64,000 nucleotides of DNA from a virus: positions 55,999-119,998 of IMG/VR virus record IMGVR_UViG_3300027747_000967; one strand, given 5' to 3'. This document shows, piece after piece, positions 3,536-29,235 of this stretch (its first letter is position 1; each line of letters opens with the position of its first letter). A program made the position numbers and the translations under genes. The notes beneath the pieces are model-generated. The model was given only the letters and a program-made list of their open reading frames with translations. It ran no database searches and was not told where the DNA came from.

Positions 3536-5376
3536 TTTTTTCCTTTAATCCAATCGTCAGGTATCTTACCATGTTTCTTTTTAAAATCGTTATGTAAATC
3601 TTTGCCGGTAATTCCATGTTTAACAGCAATTTTTTTCATTAAACTATCAATTGAATCATAACTATGACTATCTAACTTCTGTAAACCTTTTTCTAATTCT
3701 ACTACACAGTCCTCATTAAATTTCTTCTTACCTTTTTTCTTAATGATGACACCAACATTTCTATTTAAATCTTTATAGGTATCCATACCTTCTTTGTTGC
3801 TAGCACCACCTAAAACACCACCTAAACCAGATTCAACATCATTTTGAAAACCATTATATTCTTTAAATGTTCTCAACTTCTTCTTTTTAGGTACATCATA
3901 ATCACTACTTAAAGGATTTACAGAACCACCACCTGGCATTGCGTTACTAGCAGGACTTGCATTACTATATTCTACTGTCTCTCCCATGCCACCTAATCCA
4001 GCACCACCAGTTAATCCCGAACCATTAGTTCTCGTATTCCATTCTCCACCTAAACCAGTTGGTCTTACAGATTTAGGTTCTTTACCTGAAGTATCGCCAC
4101 CTTTTAATCTTTTCTTTTTATCATTATCATAATTAAAATTGGGTTCTTTAGGTAAAGGCAATGCTCTTAAAATAGGTTTACTTTCTGTCAATACACCCCT
4201 ATTCCTTTTCAACCATCCTTCTGCTACATCGGTAAATCTGTTGGAATCTAAAAAGAGGTTTGTATTTTCATATACTGTATGAATATCCTCTTCCTTGGTA
4301 TCTAGGTTTCCTGTGTTGTCAAAGCCTATAAATGTCTCAAAAATTTCATAAAAACTATTAATATTTTTTTGCGATTTATTCCATTTGTGATATCGAGCAG
4401 ATTCATTCATCATTTTAGACAATGATTCATTTCTTTGTTTACTAATTTCATTGGTTGTTCCAACAAAAATCATCATGGTTTCGTAACCAAGTTCTTCAAG
4501 TTCTTCTTTAATATAAGAAACTTTTTCATAATCGTCCGCAGGTCCATTAATGATTAGTGGGCTTCTTCTGCGAATTGACTCTCTACGATAATCGTTGGTT
4601 TTTTCGGATAGTTTTTGTTTATCACCAAGAAAATCAATAGCTTGCGTAAAATTAATTTCAGTCATTTTACTCTCAGCAATGGCTTCACGGATAATAATGT
4701 CTTTACCTGAACCTGGACCACCAGTTAGAAAGATTGCCTTGAATGAACCACGATATATTTGTTCATTTAATCCCATGCCTTTACGGACATCATGCATCAA
4801 TTCTTTTGTGTGTTCGTCAGAAACATGAGATGGAACACCTTCACGAAAGCCAGCGAAATTATTATTTTTTGCGTGTTCTCTCATTTTTGTAGCAGACATA
4901 CCTTCTGCACCTTCAGCGTCAGGGTCACGATGACCAGCAGACACAACACTTATCTTTTTGAACTTATAAAAACCGTGTTTACCTTTTACGTCATTGTATT
5001 TGTCCAATGTTGTTTGGAATTCTTTAACACGGTCAGAACCAGCAACTACGATTAGATGGTCATGTCCTTTATTATAAAGTCTGGTAGCATGATGAAAAAT
5101 AGAAGGTTCTTCGGAACTAGAAGATTCAAAATTTGTACCAGGAGAATATCTTCTTAAATGTTTAATTTTTTGTTTGGCAGACAAAGGATTCTTTTTTGTA
5201 TCTTGTGAATGTGATACAATAATATGATGTGGTGCATGATTTTTTTCTGCAACTTCTCTTATTTTATGAATTAACTTTAAATGACCAGTAGTAGGAGGAT
5301 TCATACGACCAAACGCCATCACCACAGGATTATGTGTTTTTTCTATTTCTTCATATAATTCTAAAAATGATTTCAT
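3532..5376 (-). CDS. Cytidylyltransferase-like domain fused to P-loop kinase-like domain
   Basis: A 614-residue fusion. Residues about 16-200 are a nucleotidyltransferase of the HxGH superfamily, with FGRMNPPTTGHLKL near residue 22 and the closing motif MSATKMREHA near 160. Residues about 213-360 form a P-loop domain with Walker A GGPGSGKD, resembling a small-molecule or nucleic-acid kinase. The last 200 residues are Gly-rich and low complexity with no recognised fold. The N-terminus MKSFLELYEE resembles a capsid-targeting leader with an LYE/E site. The domain pair suggests NAD, CDP-sugar or nucleotide metabolism, but the substrate cannot be read from sequence. Cytidylyltransferase-like genes of this type are common in marine T4-like phages. 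Confidence 0.8.
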   Translation of the reverse strand: MKSFLELYEEIEKTHNPVVMAFGRMNPPTTGHLKLIHKIREVAEKNHAPHHIIVSHSQDTKKNPLSAKQKIKHLRRYSPGTNFESSSSEEPSIFHHATRLYNKGHDHLIVVAGSDRVKEFQTTLDKYNDVKGKHGFYKFKKISVVSAGHRDPDAEGAEGMSATKMREHAKNNNFAGFREGVPSHVSDEHTKELMHDVRKGMGLNEQIYRGSFKAIFLTGGPGSGKDIIIREAIAESKMTEINFTQAIDFLGDKQKLSEKTNDYRRESIRRRSPLIINGPADDYEKVSYIKEELEELGYETMMIFVGTTNEISKQRNESLSKMMNESARYHKWNKSQKNINSFYEIFETFIGFDNTGNLDTKEEDIHTVYENTNLFLDSNRFTDVAEGWLKRNRGVLTESKPILRALPLPKEPNFNYDNDKKKRLKGGDTSGKEPKSVRPTGLGGEWNTRTNGSGLTGGAGLGGMGETVEYSNASPASNAMPGGGSVNPLSSDYDVPKKKKLRTFKEYNGFQNDVESGLGGVLGGASNKEGMDTYKDLNRNVGVIIKKKGKKKFNEDCVVELEKGLQKLDSHSYDSIDSLMKKIAVKHGITGKDLHNDFKKKHGKIPDDWIKGKK

Positions 5377-6380
5377 TCGTCTATCGTTTTCTTAAAATTG
5401 ATACCTTTATGGCCTAATGTTTTGGCCATTGCTTGTAAGTGTTCATCTTCATCTAAATCAACATGACTTTTTTCCAAATGTTTTACTTTAAACATCACCA
5501 TTCTTTTCATAGGATCGCCAGTTTTTTGATAAACTCTGAATTGTCCTTTACCTTTTGCTTCAGGTAATCCGTGGCCAGTTGCATCTTTTTTTCCTACTTT
5601 ATAAGTACCGTGTTTACCAACTTGCAAAACATGGACATGATGGTCTTTTAAATATCCGTTTGCTGGGTCCAAATTTTCATGTTCAAATAAAACATCTTTA
5701 GCTCTTTTGACATTTTCATTGGGCATATGATGTTTATTCATATGTTCTAAGATACCTTTTGCTTCAATATGTTTTGCATAAGTAGGCCTATTCGCCTTAT
5801 TCTTTTCGGGCATATGCCAACCGCCTTTGTTTTTATCATAGGCAATCGTCAATTGACCAAATGCGGCTGTTTTACCAATTTTTGTTTCACCTTGTAACAC
5901 TTTTTTATCTCCAACTTCTCTTTCACTATGAACTCTACCTTTATGTTTCTGTCCGGTTTTTTTATTAATTAAATTAAAATCATTACCAGCAGAAAAACCA
6001 GCGGCTTCTCCGTGCATCAAACCATGTTTTTTTAATCTTTCAACAAATTGTTTTTCATAATCAAAACCTTTATTAGCTTTTTGTTCACCAGGTTTAACAA
6101 TTTTATTTGCAGGTATTAAAGTTTTCTTTTTTGTAACATTATCGGTAGCATGAACAAATAATTTACCGTCATATCTTTCTGCTTTATGTAATATTAAATC
6201 AGCGCCTGCAGGAACATCTTTATGACCTACGCCTAGTTTATGAGTAGGCGTTTTACTATTCAAATGAGGTGTAACATATTGTTTTTCGTGTCTTTCTGTG
6301 TCAAATCCAGTTGCAGCAATATATCCTCTCGATTCAAGAATTAAATCTTCATAGAGAATATATTCTTTAAAATTAAACAT
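5373..6380 (-). CDS. Unknown basic protein, possible PD-(D/E)XK nuclease
   Basis: A 335-residue Lys/His-rich protein that I do not recognise by name. Residues about 125-190 read FDYEKQFVERLKKHGL, then SAGNDFNL, then GETKIGKTAAFGQL. The spacing of E, D and ExK resembles a PD-(D/E)XK nuclease core; this is a suggestion from motif order only. The N-terminus MFNFKEYILYEDLILESRG carries two gp21-type sites (LYE/D, ILE/S), and another possible one lies near the C-terminus (LDE/D). Start and stop abut the neighbouring genes. Late expression with the rest of the set is likely from the promoter at 7602. Confidence 0.7.
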   Translation of the reverse strand: MFNFKEYILYEDLILESRGYIAATGFDTERHEKQYVTPHLNSKTPTHKLGVGHKDVPAGADLILHKAERYDGKLFVHATDNVTKKKTLIPANKIVKPGEQKANKGFDYEKQFVERLKKHGLMHGEAAGFSAGNDFNLINKKTGQKHKGRVHSEREVGDKKVLQGETKIGKTAAFGQLTIAYDKNKGGWHMPEKNKANRPTYAKHIEAKGILEHMNKHHMPNENVKRAKDVLFEHENLDPANGYLKDHHVHVLQVGKHGTYKVGKKDATGHGLPEAKGKGQFRVYQKTGDPMKRMVMFKVKHLEKSHVDLDEDEHLQAMAKTLGHKGINFKKTIDE

Positions 6381-7660: not shown

Positions 7661-7691
7661 AGAGAGAAGTTTGAGCTTAAATTATTGGGTT

Positions 7692-8525
7692 TTATACCAG
7701 TAATTCAATCATCTTTGACATAGGATATTGAGGTTCATATCCTAATTTTTTGATTTTTTTGATGTCTAGTATCATATCTTTTGCTTGAACAATACTATGA
7801 AATCTAGGTGTTGGTATACTATTAAAAGATGAAGAAGAATTTGTCATTTCCTTAACCTTCAACATTACGTCCATCAAACGAATACCTTCACCGTTCGCTA
7901 GGTTGTAGATTTCATTCTTTTTTCCAGAATTTAGAATAAGGTTGATACCAGACACGACATCATCTACATAAATGTAATCTCTATACACTTCACCACCCTC
8001 ATATAGATTGATGGGATTACCTTGTTTAACTTCATTAATCATATATTGTAAAGCATTCTTCTTAGCAGACGCCTTGCCATCTGATTTACCTACCACATTA
8101 CCTAAACGAATAATACGATAAGGTATTTCAAATGTTTTACAATAAGAAATGAGTAATTGTTCAGCTGCTCGTTTGGTAATTGAATAGAACCCTCTAGGGT
8201 CACAACCATAGGTTTCTTTAGCAGGTAGTTTAACGTCACCATAGACAAACCAAGAACTAATAAAGTTAAATGTAATATCTTTACCTTTACAAGACTCTAG
8301 TACTTTAATTAAAGTCGTAAGATTGGTTTCAATGTCAAGATAAGGGTTAGTGTGAACATTATAATTATCAATAGTAGATATAAAGTATAAAACATCCGTA
8401 ACTCCTTCCTTTGCTTTCACTTCATAGTCATTTCTTTCATTAACCCAAAGATATCCATCTGTCAATTCTACATAACGAGAACCTATAAAACCTTTACCTC
8501 CAAAAACATTGATTAATCGTTCCAT
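7692..8525 (-). CDS. NAD-dependent sugar epimerase/dehydratase (SDR family)
   Basis: A 277-residue extended short-chain dehydrogenase. The nucleotide-binding motif GGKGFIG is at residues 9-15 and the catalytic YSITK is near residue 133, with the downstream RDYIYVDDVVSG signature of sugar-nucleotide epimerases and reductases. It overlaps the 3' side of the RfbH-like gene by a few bases. That pairing suggests it reduces or epimerises the product of the 3-dehydrase step of a deoxysugar pathway, as in CDP-3,6-dideoxyhexose synthesis. The exact substrate is not readable; a UDP-sugar epimerase role is possible. Confidence 0.88.
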   Translation of the reverse strand: MERLINVFGGKGFIGSRYVELTDGYLWVNERNDYEVKAKEGVTDVLYFISTIDNYNVHTNPYLDIETNLTTLIKVLESCKGKDITFNFISSWFVYGDVKLPAKETYGCDPRGFYSITKRAAEQLLISYCKTFEIPYRIIRLGNVVGKSDGKASAKKNALQYMINEVKQGNPINLYEGGEVYRDYIYVDDVVSGINLILNSGKKNEIYNLANGEGIRLMDVMLKVKEMTNSSSSFNSIPTPRFHSIVQAKDMILDIKKIKKLGYEPQYPMSKMIELLV

Positions 8526-21308: not shown

Positions 21309-22412
21309 TTAATTAAAAAAATCTTCTAACGAATTTACTTCTTCAGTTGTCCACTTCATACAATCTAAAATAACTTTAATTGGTTCAATAAATGCTTTGT
21401 CAAATTGTTTATCATAGTCAATATACTCCTGTAAATCAAATTCTTTTGGTAATCTTGATGGATAGGATATCACATCTGTTTTATAGTTATTAGGTAATTT
21501 GAGATATGTAAATTTGATTTTTTCTCCTTCTTGAATCAAAGGATATTTCTTTGTCAAACCTTTTTCTTTTAGATAATGATTATAAACAATGGCGCCTCTC
21601 ACATGAATTGGTGTGCCTGATTTGTAAGCACCATTTGCTTCTGAGTATTTATTCAAACCGTTTAGGCCTCTAGGAAAAGAAATATCTTCAGGTGGTAACT
21701 CACGAAATTCTTTTCTAAAGTTTTCAATAAAATCATGTATATCTTTTTGAGTACCATTCAACATTAACTTAATGGACTCTTTCATCTTTTCACGAATAGC
21801 GGATGGTGTAGAAGATTTAACCATCTCTAAACCCATCACTTTCATTTGAGGTTCTTTATACTCAACACCTTCGTTATTATAGATGTTCATAATGTATCGT
21901 TTCTTAGCAGTCCAGATTCCTTTGTTTGCCAACGCTTCACGTTTCATTTCCATCTTCTGCTGATAAGCTCTAGTATAGTCTGCCAACTCATGATAAGATT
22001 TATCAATAAATGGTTGAATCTTAGTCTCACAGACTTTATCCATGAACGAGATAATCTTTTTATCATCTTCTGTCTTTTCAGCAAAGACTTTTTTGACCAA
22101 CTCTCCAAGACGGAGATAAATTGAGTCAGTATCACTTGCAATAACATAATCTACTTCCTCCGTTTCTAATAGTTTGTTCATGTATTGATTTAATTTTGCT
22201 TCTATCCAACGAATGCTTAGTTGGCCTGCTGTCGTAACACCAAGAGCCATCCGTAAATCATAAAACCGAAAGTATTGAGAGCCGCATGCTCCGTAAAGAG
22301 AATTTAATCCGACTTTTTTAGCTAACTGTATATTATTATTTTTTGATATAGATTTCTTTAGATTATAGTACATTTCAATTAATTCGGTATCAGATAAATT
22401 TTTATAATCCAT
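21309..22412 (-). CDS. 43: DNA polymerase gp43, C-terminal fragment
   Basis: A 367-residue family B polymerase fragment. Motif B is KKVGLNSLYGACGS near residue 30 and motif C is YVIASDTDSIYLRLG near residue 90, followed by the thumb. Motif A and the exonuclease lie in the 23144-24649 gene. The two pieces total 868 residues against 898 in T4 gp43, so little is missing. An in-frame TAA just ahead of the ATG shows it is translated separately. Its start overlaps the last codons of the HNH gene, so re-initiation is likely. Presumably the two chains assemble into one enzyme. Confidence 0.93.
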   Translation of the reverse strand: MDYKNLSDTELIEMYYNLKKSISKNNNIQLAKKVGLNSLYGACGSQYFRFYDLRMALGVTTAGQLSIRWIEAKLNQYMNKLLETEEVDYVIASDTDSIYLRLGELVKKVFAEKTEDDKKIISFMDKVCETKIQPFIDKSYHELADYTRAYQQKMEMKREALANKGIWTAKKRYIMNIYNNEGVEYKEPQMKVMGLEMVKSSTPSAIREKMKESIKLMLNGTQKDIHDFIENFRKEFRELPPEDISFPRGLNGLNKYSEANGAYKSGTPIHVRGAIVYNHYLKEKGLTKKYPLIQEGEKIKFTYLKLPNNYKTDVISYPSRLPKEFDLQEYIDYDKQFDKAFIEPIKVILDCMKWTTEEVNSLEDFFN

Positions 22413-23097
22413 TATTTAATTTTCCATAATATAATTCTACATCATTGTTTCTATATACTAAAGCTCTTGTAAGATTAGGATTCCTTTTACCATCTTTTCT
22501 GAACGGTTTCTGTTTTTTTAACCATTCGTTAAATTCTACATCACTCATATTAATATACTTTTCTTTTGTTTTCAACCTAGATTCACTAATTTTTTTGGTT
22601 TTTTCAGTTGAACAAGGAGATGATTTTCTATTTTTAGGATAATTTATTATTTTCATTCCTGTTTTTTTAACTCGCATTTTTTCAATACCATTTTTTATTG
22701 ACTCCTCAGAAGCTCCAAAATATTTTTTTCCAAACATATCATTTCTTATTTTTCCTTTTTTAGCTTCATACATTGCTAGTTTAGCTGAAGCAAATTGTTT
22801 AGATGTATAACTAACTTTTCTGTGGTTATCGCCACCAGTACCTAATACCATCATATGATATGCTTGTGCCATTTTTCTTGTTTTGTGATTATTGGTTCCA
22901 TATCTTTTTTTAAAAAGTTTCCATAAAAGGTGGTGTGCAATATAGTGTTCCCGTAAAGTTAACTTAACAATATTTTTATTTTTTCCGTAAATGGACTCTG
23001 GAAAAATATGATGGTTTTCATAATTTTTTCTTTCAAATATTACTGTTCTAGTTTTTGCTTTTCTACAAAGTTTTATATAATGTTTTATATAATTCAT
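22402..23097 (-). CDS. HNH homing endonuclease inserted in gp43
   Basis: A 231-residue free-standing endonuclease. The HNH core is ENHHIFPESIYG then NIVKLTLREHYIAHHLL (residues about 27-60). The same family is present at 37705-38373. An AAGGA ribosome site precedes its ATG, and a late promoter (TATAAATA) lies 31 bases upstream. Only 46 bases separate it from gp43-N, and its 3' end overlaps gp43-C. There is no room for a complete group I intron outside the reading frame, so this looks like an endonuclease gene that splits its target gene. Confidence 0.88.
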   Translation of the reverse strand: MNYIKHYIKLCRKAKTRTVIFERKNYENHHIFPESIYGKNKNIVKLTLREHYIAHHLLWKLFKKRYGTNNHKTRKMAQAYHMMVLGTGGDNHRKVSYTSKQFASAKLAMYEAKKGKIRNDMFGKKYFGASEESIKNGIEKMRVKKTGMKIINYPKNRKSSPCSTEKTKKISESRLKTKEKYINMSDVEFNEWLKKQKPFRKDGKRNPNLTRALVYRNNDVELYYGKLNNGL

Positions 23098-23127
23098 TTT
23101 TTTGTCCTTAGATTTGAATACCTTTAG

Positions 23128-23135
23128 TATTTATA
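23128..23135 (-). promoter_or_regulatory. T4-type late promoter ahead of HNH gene
   Basis: TATAAATA on the minus strand lies just after the gp43-N stop and 31 bases ahead of the HNH ATG. It would give the mobile endonuclease, and through it gp43-C, late expression separate from gp43-N. Confidence 0.65.
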
Positions 23136-23143
23136 AATAAAGA

Positions 23144-24649
23144 CTATTCAACTCTAAGATTTCTTCTTTCTAATTCAGTTAAAATTAACTCCAATTGTTG
23201 TTTTTCCTTTAACATTATTTTTTTTGCATCTTGCCTTTCTTTAAACATTTTTTCAATTAAACTTGGCATAAATCCTTTAATATCGGTTCTGAAGAATTGT
23301 CCATTTGGCGTTAATGTTGCATTAACCAATCTAGAAGTCTCTACCTGTTTCATTAATAAACCGTCAAGTGATATACCATCAGATAAAATCTTACGCATTT
23401 CATCAGTATAGTTTTCAGGTTCAATTAAAGTTTCGGGACTTATATTGTATTGCATCATTAAACTTGGATATAGTGATGTTAAATCAAACGAAACAATCCA
23501 ATCATGTTTGCCTACTTGAACTTCTTTGACATATGCACCCTCAAACATACCGTCTTTTTCTTTATGTTCTTTTGGTGGAACAATGATTTTCTTATCCAAC
23601 AAATACGAATATGTGAGAGCGTCCCACATTCTTGTTTGTGCAAAGACATCTTCAAAGTTTGATTTTGTGTCGTATGCTAGTGTTACTGCTAATTCTAATA
23701 ATTTTAATTTTTCTTCAAGTTTTAGAATCAACATTACGTCTTTAATGTTATACTCAATAAATTTTTGGAAGTTTAGACGATATAACGCATGAAGATTGTC
23801 ATACTCATCATAAGATATTTTACCTTCACCCAACTCAACTTGAGCGATAGCATCCAAACGATAAGATTCTTGTGACTTACCGCCAGGAGCATACCATTTA
23901 TACAACTCAATATAATCTAATGATGCAAGACCCATCAAACTATATTCAATTAATGTTTTACCATTTACAAGTGTTTTTTTGTCACGAATATAATTCCATG
24001 GTGATAGTTTTTTTGCTTCATCTTCACCGAGAATCTTACGAAAACGATTTACAAGATAAGGTATATCGAAGAACTTTGTATTCCATCCTGTGATAATGTC
24101 TGGACACTTTTTAGACCACATTGTAAGAAACTTTTTACATAAAGTATATTCATCTTTACATTGTAAATAAATTTCATCACCTTGTGCATAGTATTCACCA
24201 CATCCAAACACTACGGTTTCGCCATTAAGATACTTTACACAAATAGCAGTAATAGGTTCATTGGCTTCGTATGGGTCAGGAAATCCATTCTCTGAACCTA
24301 CCTCAATATCTATTACGCCTATGAGAACTCTATCAAAATCATAATCAACTAATTTAGGATGCTGGTCAGCAATAAAGGCATACTCATAACGAGTTTGGCC
24401 ATACATTACAGGTGCACCAGGAAGTCCATCAAATTGTTTAATGTAATCTCTTGCTTCACGAATGTCTTGAAATTGTTTTCTATCTAATGGAAGGCCAGTG
24501 AGTGACTTATAAATTCCTTGTGGATTTTTTCTAGAAGGCAAAAAAAGAGAAGGCGCATAAGCAATCTTCTCTTTTACTCTCTTACCATTTTCTATTCCTC
24601 GGTAAAGAATATTATTACCGAGGACTTCTACGCTTGTATAAAAATTCAA
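23144..24649 (-). CDS. 43: DNA polymerase gp43, N-terminal fragment
   Basis: A 501-residue fragment with the 3'-5' exonuclease domain and the start of the palm. The exonuclease motifs are GVIDIEVGSENGF (Exo I) and ITGWNTKFFDIPYL (Exo II). Polymerase motif A is FDLTSLYPSLMMQYN near residue 390. It ends at TELERRNLRVE, between motifs A and B. Alignment from memory with the T4 N-terminus puts the start here, where the codon is TTG. No in-frame ATG is near and CAGG lies upstream, so it seems to use a TTG start. Confidence 0.93.
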   Translation of the reverse strand: MNFYTSVEVLGNNILYRGIENGKRVKEKIAYAPSLFLPSRKNPQGIYKSLTGLPLDRKQFQDIREARDYIKQFDGLPGAPVMYGQTRYEYAFIADQHPKLVDYDFDRVLIGVIDIEVGSENGFPDPYEANEPITAICVKYLNGETVVFGCGEYYAQGDEIYLQCKDEYTLCKKFLTMWSKKCPDIITGWNTKFFDIPYLVNRFRKILGEDEAKKLSPWNYIRDKKTLVNGKTLIEYSLMGLASLDYIELYKWYAPGGKSQESYRLDAIAQVELGEGKISYDEYDNLHALYRLNFQKFIEYNIKDVMLILKLEEKLKLLELAVTLAYDTKSNFEDVFAQTRMWDALTYSYLLDKKIIVPPKEHKEKDGMFEGAYVKEVQVGKHDWIVSFDLTSLYPSLMMQYNISPETLIEPENYTDEMRKILSDGISLDGLLMKQVETSRLVNATLTPNGQFFRTDIKGFMPSLIEKMFKERQDAKKIMLKEKQQLELILTELERRNLRVE

Positions 24650-24651
24650 AA

Positions 24652-24960
24652 TTAACCTGTGATTAATTGTTTTGATGGAAGAACGATACCTGAACCAAAG
24701 ATTTGATTATAGTTATTTACAAAATCTTCTGCTGGTTCATAAGAGTATACTACATTCTTCTTAGCGATGGCAATAGTGGCACCTTTCTTTTGTGGTGCAT
24801 GAAGTGGAAATGGAGCAAAGCCAATGTTGGGTTGTCCGTCTTTACCACGAACTACAGCAATACCTACAGGGTTTGATAACACATATTCAGTTTCAGATTG
24901 TGATTCAATCTCACCTAAAACTTCTTCACCGTTAATTAATTTTAAGACTTGAATATTCAT
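24652..24960 (-). CDS. Small Sm-like conserved phage protein A
   Basis: A 102-residue protein starting MNIQVLKLINGEEVLGEIES. The pattern of short beta strands (VLKLINGEEVLGEI...EYVLSNPVGIAV) resembles an Sm-like barrel. A related protein (KILRLQSGEDIIGLVDIS) is encoded at 39041-39433. Both families are common small genes in marine T4-like phages. RNA or protein binding is a guess. It directly precedes gp43-N, three bases apart. Confidence 0.7.
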   Translation of the reverse strand: MNIQVLKLINGEEVLGEIESQSETEYVLSNPVGIAVVRGKDGQPNIGFAPFPLHAPQKKGATIAIAKKNVVYSYEPAEDFVNNYNQIFGSGIVLPSKQLITG

Positions 24961-24977: not shown

Positions 24978-25052
24978 TGGAGCGGATAGTCAGATTTGAA
25001 CTGACGACATTTTCGTTGGCAACGAAACATTCTACCCCTGAATTATACCCGC
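24978..25052 (-). tRNA. tRNA-Gly(GCC)
   Basis: A full cloverleaf on the minus strand: acceptor GCGGGTA with TATCCGC (one G-U), anticodon arm TTTCG-TTGCCAA-CGAAA with anticodon GCC, T-loop TTCAAAT, discriminator T and an encoded CCA. Length 75 with CCA. The tRNA lies just after an AT stem that closes the spacer upstream. Confidence 0.93.
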
Positions 25053-25055
25053 ATG

Positions 25056-25107
25056 ATACTATTATATAATACTTATGAACGATTGTAAAGCACTATATAA
25101 TAATATA
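25056..25107 (-). repeat. AT-rich stem closing the spacer at tRNA-Gly(GCC)
   Basis: Arms near 25058-25069 and 25094-25107 pair over about 12 bases. The one exception is a G-U on the minus-strand RNA and a C-A mismatch on the plus strand, which favours minus-strand transcription. The arm nearest the tRNA ends a few bases from its 5' end. The plus-strand version includes TATAAT (25096-25101), a possible -10 for the 25130 gene. Confidence 0.45.
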
Positions 25108-25129
25108 CCACATTAAAAAAGAGAACAAA

Positions 25130-25411
25130 ATGAAAAAAACTATACTCAGTTTGTTATTTGTACCTATATTATCTTTTTCTCAAATCTCAGCACAAAAACC
25201 AGTCGCTTGTTTTCCAATGGATTATTTACAAAAAGAATTAAAAAAAGGCGAAGAAACACCTTTATTAATTTCAAAAAATAAAATGACCAACGAATCTACA
25301 ATCATTGTATTCAAAAATGAAAAAAATGGAACATGGACTATTATTGAATTCAAAGATGATTTTGGATGTGTTTTAGGTTTTGGTGTTGATAAAACAGGAA
25401 AATCTATTTAA
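25130..25411 (+). CDS. Small exported protein, only plus-strand gene
   Basis: A 93-residue protein with a classic signal peptide: a KK start, hydrophobic TILSLLFVPILSFS and a likely cut after ISA (residue 21). The mature part has two Cys (CFP, FGCVLGFG) that could form a disulphide. I recall similar short secreted proteins (Cys-Phe/Tyr-Pro near the start, GCxLGxG near the end) in marine phages; none has a known role. AAAGAG lies upstream of the ATG. It sits inside the minus-strand tRNA island, so it needs its own promoter. A periplasmic function such as superinfection exclusion is only a guess. Confidence 0.8.
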   Translation: MKKTILSLLFVPILSFSQISAQKPVACFPMDYLQKELKKGEETPLLISKNKMTNESTIIVFKNEKNGTWTIIEFKDDFGCVLGFGVDKTGKSI

Positions 25412-25412
25412 T

Positions 25413-25486
25413 TGGTAGCGGGACCTGGATTTGCACCAAGAACTAAGGCTTATGAGGCCATTGTGATACTCTTTCACTATCCCGCA
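25413..25486 (-). tRNA. Unusual tRNA with CAT anticodon (Met or Ile2)
   Basis: A 74-base cloverleaf: acceptor TGCGGGA/TCCCGCT with positions 1 and 72 unpaired (T-T), D arm GTG/CAC, anticodon stem ATGGC/GCCTT with one T-T mismatch, loop CTCATAA (anticodon CAT), T-arm CTTGG-TGCAAAT-CCAGG, then A and an encoded CCA. The unpaired 1-72 and three G-C pairs next to the anticodon loop recall initiator tRNA, but a modified Ile(AUA) reader is also possible. The T-loop has G at 55 instead of T. Confidence 0.75.
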
Positions 25487-25496
25487 ATAGAAATTG

Positions 25497-25565
25497 TGGA
25501 GCGGTGTCTTTGAGTTGCACAAAGATAATTAAGAGGGAATCTCAATTTGTTCTCCAACCCACCGC
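25497..25565 (-). tRNA. Reduced tRNA-like gene, anticodon TCC (Gly)
   Basis: A 69-base element with acceptor GCGGTG/CACCGC and an encoded TCCA end, anticodon arm TTGAG-ATTCCCT-CTTAA (anticodon TCC) and T-arm CTTTG-TGCAACT-CAAAG. Only about 13 bases lie between acceptor and anticodon stem, enough for a mini D arm GTT-GGAG-AAC. The T-loop carries G at 55, as in the tRNA 10 bases away. It may be a working reduced tRNA or a decaying copy. Confidence 0.5.
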
Positions 25566-25573
25566 ATATTCTT

Positions 25574-25713
25574 AATTTAATGTTATCTGCTCGATTTAGG
25601 GGTCTGGTGCTTCCATCCCATAGCGAATAAGCAGTTATCTCAGGACCTATTCCTCGCCAGTTAGACCCGAATAGTTAATACGTCTATTAACGATACCTTG
25701 ATAACACTAAATT
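25574..25713 (-). ncRNA. Structured RNA closed by a 14-bp stem
   Basis: Minus-strand AATTTAGTGTTATC (5') and GATAACATTAAATT (3') pair over all 14 bases with one G-U. On the plus strand that pair would be A-C, so the RNA is read from the minus strand. Inside are GTTAATA-GACG-TATTAAC, GGGTCT with AGACCC, and GAATAGG with CTTATTC nested inside. It follows directly after the terminator of the small RNA at 25714-25797 and precedes the TCC tRNA-like gene by 8 bases. The family is unknown; T4 also has two small RNAs of unknown role in its tRNA cluster. Confidence 0.6.
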
Positions 25714-25738
25714 AAAAATCCCGCTTACCGTTTGCGGG
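25714..25738 (-). terminator. Intrinsic terminator of the small RNA
   Basis: Minus-strand stem CCCGC/GCGGG around a 9-base loop is followed by A and five T. This is a standard Rho-independent form and ends the RNA started at about 25797. Confidence 0.75.
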
Positions 25739-25797
25739 GTCATCATACCAGATTACTCGGTTCTATGACGGTCACAACTTGCTGTTTCTCAACAGTA
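25714..25797 (-). ncRNA. Small RNA with own sigma70 promoter and terminator
   Basis: A promoter at 25804-25832 predicts a start near 25797. The RNA opens with hairpin CTGTT-GAGA-AACAG (25782-25795, a GNRA loop), has a middle region with GTCAT/ATGAC pairing, and ends in CCCGC-loop-GCGGG followed by ATTTTT. Its length would be about 80 bases. There is no open frame of note. It is in the position of T4 RNA C and RNA D (tRNA cluster) but no sequence link is claimed. Confidence 0.65.
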
Positions 25798-25803
25798 GAT
25801 ACT

Positions 25804-25832
25804 AGTATAACATTATATATATCAAAAGTCAA
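25804..25832 (-). promoter_or_regulatory. Sigma70 promoter of the small RNA
   Basis: TTGACT, a 17-base spacer and TATACT are on the minus strand, each one base from consensus. The -35 overlaps the hairpin at 25824-25841, so an upstream terminator and this promoter share DNA. Confidence 0.75.
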
Positions 25833-25841
25833 GCGACTTTT
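25824..25841 (-). terminator. Hairpin after tRNA-Cys, overlapping a promoter
   Basis: AAAAGTC and GACTTTT pair around GCTT on the minus strand, 10 bases past the CCA of tRNA-Cys. The arms are A/T-ended and would work as a weak terminator in both directions. Confidence 0.5.
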
Positions 25842-25851
25842 TGGTATACTT

Positions 25852-25929
25852 TGGAGCAACGGGTCAGATTTGAACTGACGGCTTTACGGCTTTGCAGGCC
25901 GTTGCATTTGACCACTCTGCCACCGTTGC
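25852..25929 (-). tRNA. tRNA-Cys(GCA)
   Basis: Acceptor GCAACGG/CCGTTGC is perfect. The anticodon arm is ACGGC-CTGCAAA-GCCGT (anticodon GCA) and the T-loop TTCAAAT. Discriminator T and CCA are encoded. Length 78 with CCA. Confidence 0.92.
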
Positions 25930-25937
25930 ATAATGAA

Positions 25938-26045
25938 TTTGTAGTAGGCATGAACACAATCATATTAGTTTGCGCTTCGATATTTAACGCCACTTGCGTG
26001 GTTCCGCAACACCTTTTACATATCATCACGATAGTTACTACAAAA
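25938..26045 (-). ncRNA. Structured spacer between tRNA-Thr and tRNA-Cys
   Basis: TTTGTAGTA and TACTACAAA close the whole spacer with 9 perfect pairs, one base from the tRNA-Thr 3' end. Inside on the minus strand is CCAC-GCAA-GTGG, a GNRA hairpin, flanked by TTGCG and CGCAA. No supported reading frame lies here. It may guide tRNA processing or be an independent RNA. Confidence 0.45.
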
Positions 26046-26046
26046 C

Positions 26047-26122
26047 TGGTGCCCCATGTCCGACTCGAACAGACCACCTACTGATTACAAATCAGTTACT
26101 CTACCAGATGAGCTAATGGGGC
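26047..26122 (-). tRNA. tRNA-Thr(TGT)
   Basis: Perfect acceptor GCCCCAT/ATGGGGC, anticodon arm ACTGA-TTTGTAA-TCAGT (anticodon TGT), T-loop TTCGAGT, discriminator A and an encoded CCA. Length 76. Its first base directly follows the 16-bp inverted repeat at 26123-26178. Confidence 0.95.
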
Positions 26123-26178
26123 AATTGTATCCTATTATATACAATAACTCAAATTAATGCACATAATAGGATACAATT
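26123..26178 (-). repeat. Perfect 16-bp inverted repeat abutting tRNA-Thr
   Basis: AATTGTATCCTATTAT at 26123-26138 pairs perfectly with ATAATAGGATACAATT at 26163-26178, with 24 bases between. On the minus strand the 3' arm touches base 1 of tRNA-Thr. It overlaps the last 15 codons of the 54-residue gene. There is no U-tract on the minus strand, so an RNA-processing hairpin is more likely than a terminator. Confidence 0.65.
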
Positions 26179-26299
26179 TTTTAGATTTCTCTTTACGTCT
26201 TAAAGCTTTGTTACTTTTTTTATGACTACCCGCTTTACGAAACAATGCCAATTTGACAAGATAGTTTCGTTCTTTGGGAGTAGAATCTTTCTTTTTCAT
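26135..26299 (-). CDS. 54-residue basic phage protein
   Basis: A short frame with a near-perfect AAGGAG ribosome site 7 bases ahead of ATG 26299. The protein begins MKKKDSTPKERNYLVKLALF and continues with RKAGSHKKSNKALRRKEK. The KAG-x-H-x-KSNKALRRKEK pattern recurs in small proteins of T4-like phages as I recall them. The very high Lys/Arg content suggests binding to nucleic acid. The C-terminal 15 codons overlap the 16-bp inverted repeat. Lying in the tRNA island, it would be expressed with the tRNAs from the promoter at 26863. Confidence 0.75.
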   Translation of the reverse strand: MKKKDSTPKERNYLVKLALFRKAGSHKKSNKALRRKEKSKKLYPIMCINLSYCI

Positions 26300-26557
26300 C
26301 TTACTCTCCTTAAAATTAGGACGGGCTACTTCCTGTCATAGAAGCCCCCGATTGGAATTCATCGTTAGCCATATTCCCGATATGTAATGGCAAACATTGT
26401 CAATTAATAAGGGTAATGTGACAACCCACTTGCGTAAGCAGAGCAAGATAACCCCCGATTTAAAGCTCGGCAACTTATGACAACTGATTGGCCGGCCCCA
26501 CTCATGGGATACCATTTAATCTAGGCTTTCTTCGTGCTATATCCTAGAACCAAAACT
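26300..26557 (-). ncRNA. Multi-hairpin leader between tRNA-Asp and the 54-residue gene
   Basis: There are 258 bases without a frame, and at least six short stems can be drawn on the minus strand: TCTAGG/CCTAGA, CCCA-TGAG-TGGG, CCGA/TCGG, CTTGC/GCAAG, TTGTCA/TGACAA and GCCAT/ATGGC, then GGGCT/AGCCC just ahead of the ribosome site. It may be a long structured leader or a separate RNA. It has no similarity to a riboswitch class I know. Confidence 0.4.
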
Positions 26558-26634
26558 TGGCGGTCTGTATCGGACTTGAACCGATGGTCTCCTCCGTGAC
26601 AGGGAGGCGATTTAACCAACTAATCTAACAAACC
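26558..26634 (-). tRNA. tRNA-Asp(GTC)
   Basis: Acceptor GGTTTGT/ACAGACC (one G-U), anticodon arm CCTCC-CTGTCAC-GGAGG (anticodon GTC), T-loop TTCAAGT, discriminator G with encoded CCA. Length 77. Confidence 0.95.
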
Positions 26635-26729
26635 ATATTGAAGCACACTATTGAGATTCCACTTTTCAAGTCAGGGTCCGGATGACCAAGCGCCGCTTCT
26701 CGCAGGTAGGGAATAATGTGCTTCAATAT
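26635..26729 (-). ncRNA. Cloverleaf-like RNA filling the Asp-Glu spacer
   Basis: The whole spacer is closed by an 18-bp stem (26635-26652 with 26712-26729). Its one irregular pair is G-U on the minus strand. Inside are three small hairpins in a row on the minus strand: AAGC-GGC-GCTT, GGTC-ATCCG-GACC and ACTT-GAA-AAGT, giving a four-way shape. The ends touch both tRNAs. There is no anticodon-like loop or CCA. Function unknown. Confidence 0.5.
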
Positions 26730-26803
26730 GGCGCTCGGTACCAGATTCGAACTGGTGTGACCGCCGTGAAAGGGCGATATCCTAACCGCTAGATGAACCG
26801 AGC
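26729..26803 (-). tRNA. tRNA-Glu(TTC)
   Basis: Acceptor GCTCGGT/ACCGAGC, anticodon arm TCGCC-CTTTCAC-GGCGG (anticodon TTC), T-loop TTCGAAT, discriminator G with encoded CCA. Length 75. It is the first tRNA behind the promoter at 26863-26890. Confidence 0.95.
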
Positions 26804-28726: not shown

Positions 28727-28754
28727 AGATTTTCTCCTTGTTAAGCGAGTTAAT

Positions 28755-28785
28755 AAAAAAGTGTAGACCCCGAAGGCATCTACAC
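28755..28785 (-). terminator. Terminator in the Hsp20 leader
   Basis: GTGTAGA and TCTACAC pair with an inner CC-TTCG-GG and are followed by six T, between the promoter at 28791-28819 and the Hsp20 start. It ends the regA transcript and could attenuate the Hsp20 transcript. Confidence 0.75.
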
Positions 28786-28790
28786 TTATA

Positions 28791-28819
28791 TTTATACACT
28801 AAATTACAATATTTGTCAA
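28791..28819 (-). promoter_or_regulatory. Sigma70 promoter with overlapping late box, ahead of Hsp20
   Basis: TTGACA, 17 bases and TATAAA on the minus strand. The regA stop codon TGA lies inside the -35 box. The -10 is part of TATAAATA (28789-28796), the T4 late sequence, so the same site could serve early and late polymerase. Confidence 0.7.
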
Positions 28820-29235
28820 TAACTACCTGGTTTTTTACCAATTGAATACTTGGTAACAAGTTCCCATTCGTCTTTTTCTTTGTGAGAAAGAATCTTAATT
28901 TGTGATAGGAAAATTGGAGGTGGTGTCTGTGCTTTGGCTTTATTGACGATTTCAACCAAACCCCAATCAGACAAAAGTACCGCAATAGCATTCCTACGAG
29001 ATAAATCGTTTTCTGAAATGTCTGTTGGTTTACCATCTAATGCAAACAGTTCTTTAAAGTGAACGATTGCATAATGGCCTCTTTTGTGTAATATATGGCA
29101 AGACTGGTATAAAATTCTGTCTTTTTTAGAAGCAACACCGATACGGGTTAATGTTTCACGAACCTTCAAAAAATCATCTTTTTCTTTTAATTTTATCTCA
29201 ATACCATGTCCTAAAAATATATCCACTTCACTCAT
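28816..29235 (-). CDS. regA: RegA translational repressor
   Basis: A 139-residue RNA-binding protein that blocks ribosome loading on early phage mRNAs in T4. The core KVRETLTRIGVA, then ILYQSCHILHKRGHYAIVHFKELFALDG and SDWGLVEIV is nearly the T4 sequence as I remember it. It lies after gp62 as in T4, with a 4-base overlap. Confidence 0.95.
   Translation of the reverse strand: MSEVDIFLGHGIEIKLKEKDDFLKVRETLTRIGVASKKDRILYQSCHILHKRGHYAIVHFKELFALDGKPTDISENDLSRRNAIAVLLSDWGLVEIVNKAKAQTPPPIFLSQIKILSHKEKDEWELVTKYSIGKKPGSY

Follow-up and report, generated by a model that had tools for sequence, protein, structure and literature searches.

A candidate pseudoknotted leader module in front of phage tRNAs and protein genes

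The window analysed here, a stretch of 64,000 nucleotides, comes from a virus record of 119,998 bases that has T4-like genes; the nearest match of its UvsX (64%) is that of Phage C48C1, which is annotated as Kyanoviridae. Six tRNAs lie on the minus strand of the window within positions 24978-26803. The interval from tRNA-Cys to tRNA-Met holds, on this strand, a promoter-like sequence, a GAGA hairpin and a GC-rich hairpin with ATTTTT. Is this a complete RNA gene of about 80 bases with a promoter and a terminator, as a sequence-only reading had proposed, or is it part of a longer transcript?

The TTGACT-17-TATACT promoter named in that reading is present, with TG ahead of the -10 element, and a transcription start near 25797 is plausible. 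A promoter of its own, as expected of a free-standing small RNA gene, is thus found for the window element, and the GNRA hairpin at the 5′ end is there as well (Table 1). The GC hairpin, CCCCGCAAACGGTAAGCGGG followed by ATTTTT, is located at 25739-25714 of the minus strand; it was absent from the output of our terminator scan, its loop being longer than the scan's loop limit of 8. The 3 kb around the element contain 9 promoter-like sites versus 10.2 +/- 3.3 in shuffles, so the window promoter alone is not beyond chance. In L081, a relative with the identical element, the promoter score was reached by 1 of 100 shuffles, and in relatives L007, L083, L105 and L117 by none of 100. The fold of the 84-nt window element scores z = -1.87, and 11 of 200 shuffles were equally or more stable. 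Promoter, hairpins and fold are therefore not beyond chance when taken singly; it is the comparison with relatives that makes the structure convincing.

Table 1. Features of the window locus (positions of the window; sequences are given for the minus strand).
Feature	Position	Strand	Basis
σ70-like promoter TTGACT-17-TATACT	25804-25832	-	promoter scan and shuffles
5′ hairpin CTGTT-GAGA-AACAG	25782-25795	-	sequence; pattern search
X, predicted H-type pseudoknot with in-line hairpin	25720-25771	-	descriptor fit, comparison
X strand A1, CCG	25769-25771	-	
X in-line hairpin	25740-25768	-	
X fixed C	25739	-	
X strand B1, CCCGC	25734-25738	-	
X AAA	25731-25733	-	
X strand A2, CGG	25728-25730	-	
X TAA	25725-25727	-	
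X strand B2, GCGGG	25720-25724	-	
Module Z, structured 152-nt insert	25568-25719	-	closing-stem and spacer comparison, folding
tRNA-Gly-like RNA, 69 nt, first RNA of downstream tRNA unit	25497-25565	-	
tRNA-Met (CAT), next RNA downstream	25413-25486	-	

BLAST and profile searches of fetched loci found the element, hereafter X, in L081 (identical), L060, L007 and L013. Its strands follow one another in the order A1 (3 nt), hairpin, C, B1 (5 nt), A plus 1-3 nt, A2 (3 nt), UAA and B2 (5 nt), and the helices A1:A2 and B1:B2 cross. The window copy fits this descriptor, A1-hairpin-C-B1-A(N1-3)-A2-UAA-B2, and has the two crossing helices. A search of 6.95 Mb on both strands with the full descriptor yielded 169 hits, and two letter-shuffled copies yielded no hit. 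The unpaired C, A and UAA are invariant. In alignment A2 of these elements 8 of 12 pairs are changed on both sides, the covariation score was reached by 0 of 500 shuffles, and the nine-letter apical loop has C, G and A at constant positions; the figure of 100 percent pairing is biased here, since the members of this alignment were picked by a descriptor that requires the pairs.

Fairer tests of the fold come from three sources. The first is relatives fetched by flanking homology: among Drexlerviridae both helices co-vary, C119 and Rogue1 having CCG:CGG for A1:A2 and CCCGC:GCGGG for B1:B2, and phiEB49, Opt-719, Sf12, Sd1, Phagiculus and Pantoea AAS23 having CGG:CCG and GCCGG:CCGGC. The second is a set of further compensatory changes in NBD2, LF82-11, IME347 and 26046IV. 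In the third, strand A2 was left unconstrained, while C, A and TAA were fixed and hits had to have a directly adjoining hairpin of 4 bp or more. Here A1 was complementary to A2 in 41 of 58 distinct hits (36 CGG, 4 CCG and 1 CAG), at loci that had partly been fetched by motif, as compared with 36 of 2047 hits for a control of the same geometry without fixed letters. These comparisons identify X, at the level of sequence, as a predicted compact H-type pseudoknot with an in-line hairpin.

How widely is X spread? A core pattern, CCCYGYANNCGGTAAGCRGG, matched 70 viral stretches, and CCG with a stem of at least 4 bp stood upstream of the core in 64 of 69 matches versus 82 of 1380 shuffled upstreams. 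The other five fail this rule and by eye show CCG with a shorter or interrupted stem. The same pattern matched 65 stretches in 84,980 bacterial and archaeal genomes, 9 of which meet the CCG and stem rule, which looks like chance level. With a pattern that has A:U in mid-B, 79 stretches were matched, with CCG and stem in 65 of 78; a chance-control pattern, CCNNGYANNCGGTAAGCNNGG, gave 9 of 79. The pattern of the 5′ hairpin matched 21 viral stretches, and the X core was also present in 20 of them.

A covariance model, R1, was built from 18 sequences, leaving out the A1:A2 pair and the window. It finds the window copy with E 3.4e-4 over 727 kb, aligning only 25720-25760, with the 5′ end out of register with A1 because the window copy has a 29-nt hairpin. 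The unusual length of this hairpin and the misregister both count against the reading of X as a leader module that we favour below. R1 also matches coliphage T1 (7690-7732, E 1.5e-4) and RTP (4847-4881, E 3.5e-5), and the complete fold can be read by eye in both. Among 13 records that include these two, eight matched at E <= 1.5e-4, one at 0.04 and four were unmatched; no fold is visible in the match at 0.04, from Stenotrophomonas phage DLP_6, and we take it as chance. In a set of 20 records fifteen matched at E < 0.001, usually with one X per record, although the G017 record has a second match (E 5.3e-4) without the strict core. The remaining five, T4, C48C1 and those of L019, L015 and L012, had been chosen without a known X and gave no match or E >= 0.37. 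In a sample of T4-like loci X is optional (R1 match at E < 0.001 in 8 of 80), which also counts against the leader reading.

Altogether we recorded 164 instances of X in 26 clusters of phage loci. Ten loci had been dropped before contexts were counted, nine as likely chance (L272, L159, L209, L218, L283, L394, L418, L403 and L133) and L082 as the window itself, and six instances (L098, L134, L141, L111, L128 and L075) were added by hand. Coliphages T1, RTP, Rogue1 and phiEB49 are among the carriers. The putative module is thus shown to be spread over unrelated phages. The T1 region occurs in 77 phage records, 63 of which cover at least 80% of the query. BLAST against phages with the bare 87-nt window RNA or the L104 element found no match, the L101 element gave one chance hit and the L098 element gave tRNA-Ala matches only. 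Among 5,426 complete E. coli genomes nothing matched the region around a Rogunavirus copy. On contigs L125 and L368 two copies with different stems stand about 250 bases apart.

X has apparently not been described before: a search of the openly accessible literature found no description of it. Rfam 15 at gathering score recognised only tRNAs in the window and left X unmatched in the other sources scanned, and loose-threshold scans of the window and L101 gave chance matches only on X. The sequence-only reading had likened the locus to the two small RNAs of the T4 tRNA cluster. The T4 RNAs C and D (species 1 and 2; 70908-71046 and 71053-71171 in the annotation of NC_000866) are indeed small, structured and located within a phage tRNA cluster, and the parallel ends there: the X core is missing from both, RNA D contains the 7-mer CGGTAAG but not the fold, and the whole T4 genome gives R1 only an insignificant match (E 0.47). 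Moreover, RNA C and RNA D are annotated at the 3′ end of their cluster, whereas X is at a 5′ end. Another leader RNA of T4-like phages is the manA motif (RF01745), which is sometimes located before ibpA-type chaperone genes (PMC2864571). Unlike X, it has a 192-position model; RF01745 matched none of four records (three of them X carriers), but also none of 14 controls, and further Rfam scans of X sources gave no match to it.

The nearest published phage tRNA-linked RNAs that we found are the theta ribozymes of gut phages, minimal HDV-like RNAs whose cleavage site, according to PMC10879173, lies at the 3′ end of tRNAs. X resembles them as a compact pseudoknotted RNA beside phage tRNAs; it differs in lying 5′ of the tRNAs, in having one pseudoknot and another strand order, and in also preceding protein genes. 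With this precedent (PMC10879173) it could be supposed that X is itself a small self-cleaving ribozyme that would release its payload, i.e. the tRNA or gene behind it, from the leader. A compact pseudoknot of about 40-50 nt with invariant unpaired C, A and UAA, located at the junction of leader and payload, would suit such a role. X matches no Rfam ribozyme family, however, and we identified no conserved cleavage site in it, while RNase P already generates the 5′ ends of tRNAs, so that we regard self-cleavage as improbable.

Relatives of the window reveal to which module the T-run belongs. In the window lineage, spacers between X and the tRNA-Gly-like RNA are either short (4-11 nt, 5 distinct) and devoid of a T-run or long (102-280 nt, 10 distinct) and all begin with ATTTTT. 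T-run and a structured insert, Z, thus occur together in 10 of 10 long spacers and are both absent from 5 of 5 short ones (15 of 15 concordant). In the long spacers ATTTTT opens a long stem, the other arm of which lies 3 nt before the tRNA-Gly-like RNA; the 5′ arm of this closing stem, ATTTTTAATTTAGTGTTATC, contains the T-run of the sequence-only reading. In 11 of 12 cases 17-19 of 19 letters are paired, the best of 50 shuffles reaching 16-18; an individual case like L060 (17) is therefore weak, and the argument rests on the agreement among the cases. In L137, in which the Gly-like RNA was not found, 15 of 19 are paired. Five kinds of Z insert follow the same closing rule. Exchangeable structured inserts of this type, their stem starting with AUUUUUA, are seen in the window, L083, L060, L126, L145 and L111, the last from another phage, and L094 apparently has two inserts in tandem, the other stem arm there lying before the second insert.

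This concordance shows ATTTTT in the window to be part of the putative next module, Z, and not of X. The proposed GC hairpin with ATTTTT is present as sequence, and yet comparison does not support it as the terminator of a complete RNA gene of about 80 bases. The constancy of the T-run among the five kinds of Z would also fit a U-tract or a weak terminator, for which the data leave room. What survives of the small RNA unit is a structured and probably promoter-driven RNA; in Z-less relatives X runs into the tRNA-like RNA. The tempting call of a small RNA with a terminator is thereby corrected. A trans-acting small RNA of about 85 nt, ended by the GC hairpin and T-run or freed by RNase P, is unlikely in our judgement. 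Promoter, 5′ hairpin and hairpin with T-run do form a tidy unit, there is mostly one X per record, and RNase P cleavage 4-11 nt downstream would presumably leave a similar RNA, but the T-run tracks Z and not X, many phages have X ahead of protein genes, and the conserved unpaired letters belong to the fold and form no obvious target-pairing stretch.

When the stretch 25797-25497 was folded as a whole, the 5′ hairpin, X (without its pseudoknot), Z and the tRNA-Gly-like RNA each formed a domain of its own (z = -3.03; none of 100 shuffles was equally stable). A similar promoter stands directly before the tRNA-Gly-like RNA in relatives L025, L017 and L041; in L117 and L007 it reaches this RNA via X, and in the window via X and Z. 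Given these three arrangements, X looks like a leader of the tRNA unit, and the simplest history leads from promoter-tRNA through promoter-X-tRNA to promoter-X-Z-tRNA. A candidate tRNA at 25600-25680 was dropped, as this stretch falls inside Z.

The tRNA-Gly-like RNA was not called by ARAGORN. It is conserved in the window, L025, L117, L007 and others as an RNA of 67-70 nt of the form GCGG...CCGC-UCCA; its D-like arm is short, its T loop is non-canonical, and 11 of 22 pairs are changed on both sides among 12 sequences. It retains letters that we take to be glycyl-tRNA synthetase identity elements; perhaps it would be charged and yet not used in translation. The tRNA-Met that follows has an odd T loop, TGCAAAT, and a mismatched first acceptor pair in the Rfam alignment.

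The same position ahead of an RNA unit recurs in other phages. A tRNA begins 4-10 nt 3′ of X in clusters of Rogunavirinae, L098, L090, L104 and L075 and, by eye, also in L087, about 11 nt after X in RTP and 8 nt after it in NBD2; in Z-less members of the window lineage the tRNA-Gly-like RNA takes this place at 4-11 nt. In RTP a sequence resembling the annotated tRNA-Arg of 26046IV follows X (4847-4881) and is unannotated in the RTP record. Other clusters have X shortly before the ribosome-binding sites of protein genes: an Hsp20 (PF00011) in L308, L007 and L112, gene gp57 in T1, 22 nt after X, and further small uncharacterised proteins. Within Drexlerviridae X does not move and its payload varies between tRNA-Arg, tRNA-Trp, tRNA-Ser and a protein gene; comparison thus shows that payloads are exchanged behind a fixed X.

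A function that serves both kinds of payload must act on transcription or RNA, tRNAs being untranslated; the occurrence of X ahead of both tRNAs and mRNAs thus points to a shared function at the RNA level, which X presumably exerts on its own transcript. We therefore favour, with a probability of roughly 0.55, the reading that X would be a cis-acting structured module that ends a 5′ leader, ahead of a tRNA or tRNA-like RNA or of a ribosome-binding site. Two further observations count against this reading: in the Hsp20 leaders an extra hairpin lies between X and the gene, so that X is not always adjacent to its payload, and in many other X representatives no upstream promoter-like site was better than chance. 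In the window lineage, L090, L098, L111, L345 and L363 there is a strong σ70-like promoter whose end lies 30-37 nt ahead of A1.

Such a promoter nearby, together with the untranslated tRNA units behind X and, in some hsp20 and other leaders, a hairpin and T-run immediately following X, would also suit a processive antiterminator. Transcribed X would then bind RNA polymerase and let it pass terminators and Rho, serving untranslated tRNA arrays or leaders that hold a terminator hairpin. The HK022 put RNA and the EAR/epsC element, leader RNAs that bring about antitermination in cis and as RNA, are precedents; they have no sequence relation to X in Rfam scans, and antitermination by X is hypothetical. 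A terminator after X was rejected as a general feature, since only 19 of 57 distinct protein-gene leaders had a hairpin followed by 4 or more T within 8 bases, in a scan that permits G-T pairs and is noisy. In addition, the hsp20 leader of the window itself (28727-28860, minus strand), with a promoter-like site, a hairpin and a T-run, has no X, unlike the hsp20 leaders of relatives L007, L026 and L127. We consider antitermination somewhat unlikely.

X could also control its payload as a riboswitch or protein operator, by binding a metabolite or a protein of the host or phage. Pseudoknotted leaders can do so, the leader of T4 gene 32 being a viral precedent (PMC3014915), and the conserved letters of the apical loop could be a binding site. 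The gene 32 pseudoknot is, like X, of the H type and located in a T4-type leader; it is specific to gene 32 autoregulation, whereas X has an in-line hairpin, a fixed C, A and UAA and other payloads, tRNAs included. No evident pathway is shared by tRNA-Arg, -Trp and -Ser, Hsp20 and uncharacterised small proteins, and we noticed no alternative pairing with the downstream hairpin, so control by a ligand seems a poor prospect.

For a cis-acting leader module the most likely mechanism, which we put forward tentatively and at well below even odds, is insulation or stabilisation of the payload by the rigid fold of X. The fold would keep the leader apart from the payload and hinder RNases entering from the leader side, and the tRNA or mRNA behind it would thereby fold and survive. 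The window transcript would then contain the 5′ hairpin, X, Z, the tRNA-Gly-like RNA, tRNA-Met and onward, its tRNA ends being made by the usual tRNA nucleases. As the mechanism is still hypothetical, we place X as a variant among structured phage leader RNAs, to which it adds a family shared by unrelated phages and marked by invariant letters and two-sided covariation. If X acts on polymerase or cleaves itself, it would be a new class of RNA element. We give not quite even odds to such a class, a small pseudoknot that would act on its own transcript whatever the payload, via capture of RNA polymerase or RNase or via self-cleaving release; it would then have been unrecognised until now in coliphage T1 and T4-like freshwater phages. 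Since X is present in coliphages T1, RTP and Rogue1, its function is directly testable in E. coli.

Several minor observations were made at these loci. In L075 an abiF RNA (RF03085) lies at 5937-5973, shortly after the tRNA array that also has X. In the window, a 93-aa ORF with a signal-peptide-like N-terminal stretch (25130-25411, plus strand) is antisense within the tRNA cluster, and a GC-richer inter-tRNA stretch with possible hairpins (26320-26550, minus strand) lies near a 54-aa basic ORF (26135-26299). A 102-aa protein adjoining the cluster (24652-24960, minus strand) matches phrog_527 (E 2e-20) and is weakly Sm-like (PF16243, E 0.0054, below cut-off). Finally, the DNA polymerase frame (21309-24649, minus strand) is apparently split around an ORF (22402-23097) that matches homing endonucleases (phrog_655).
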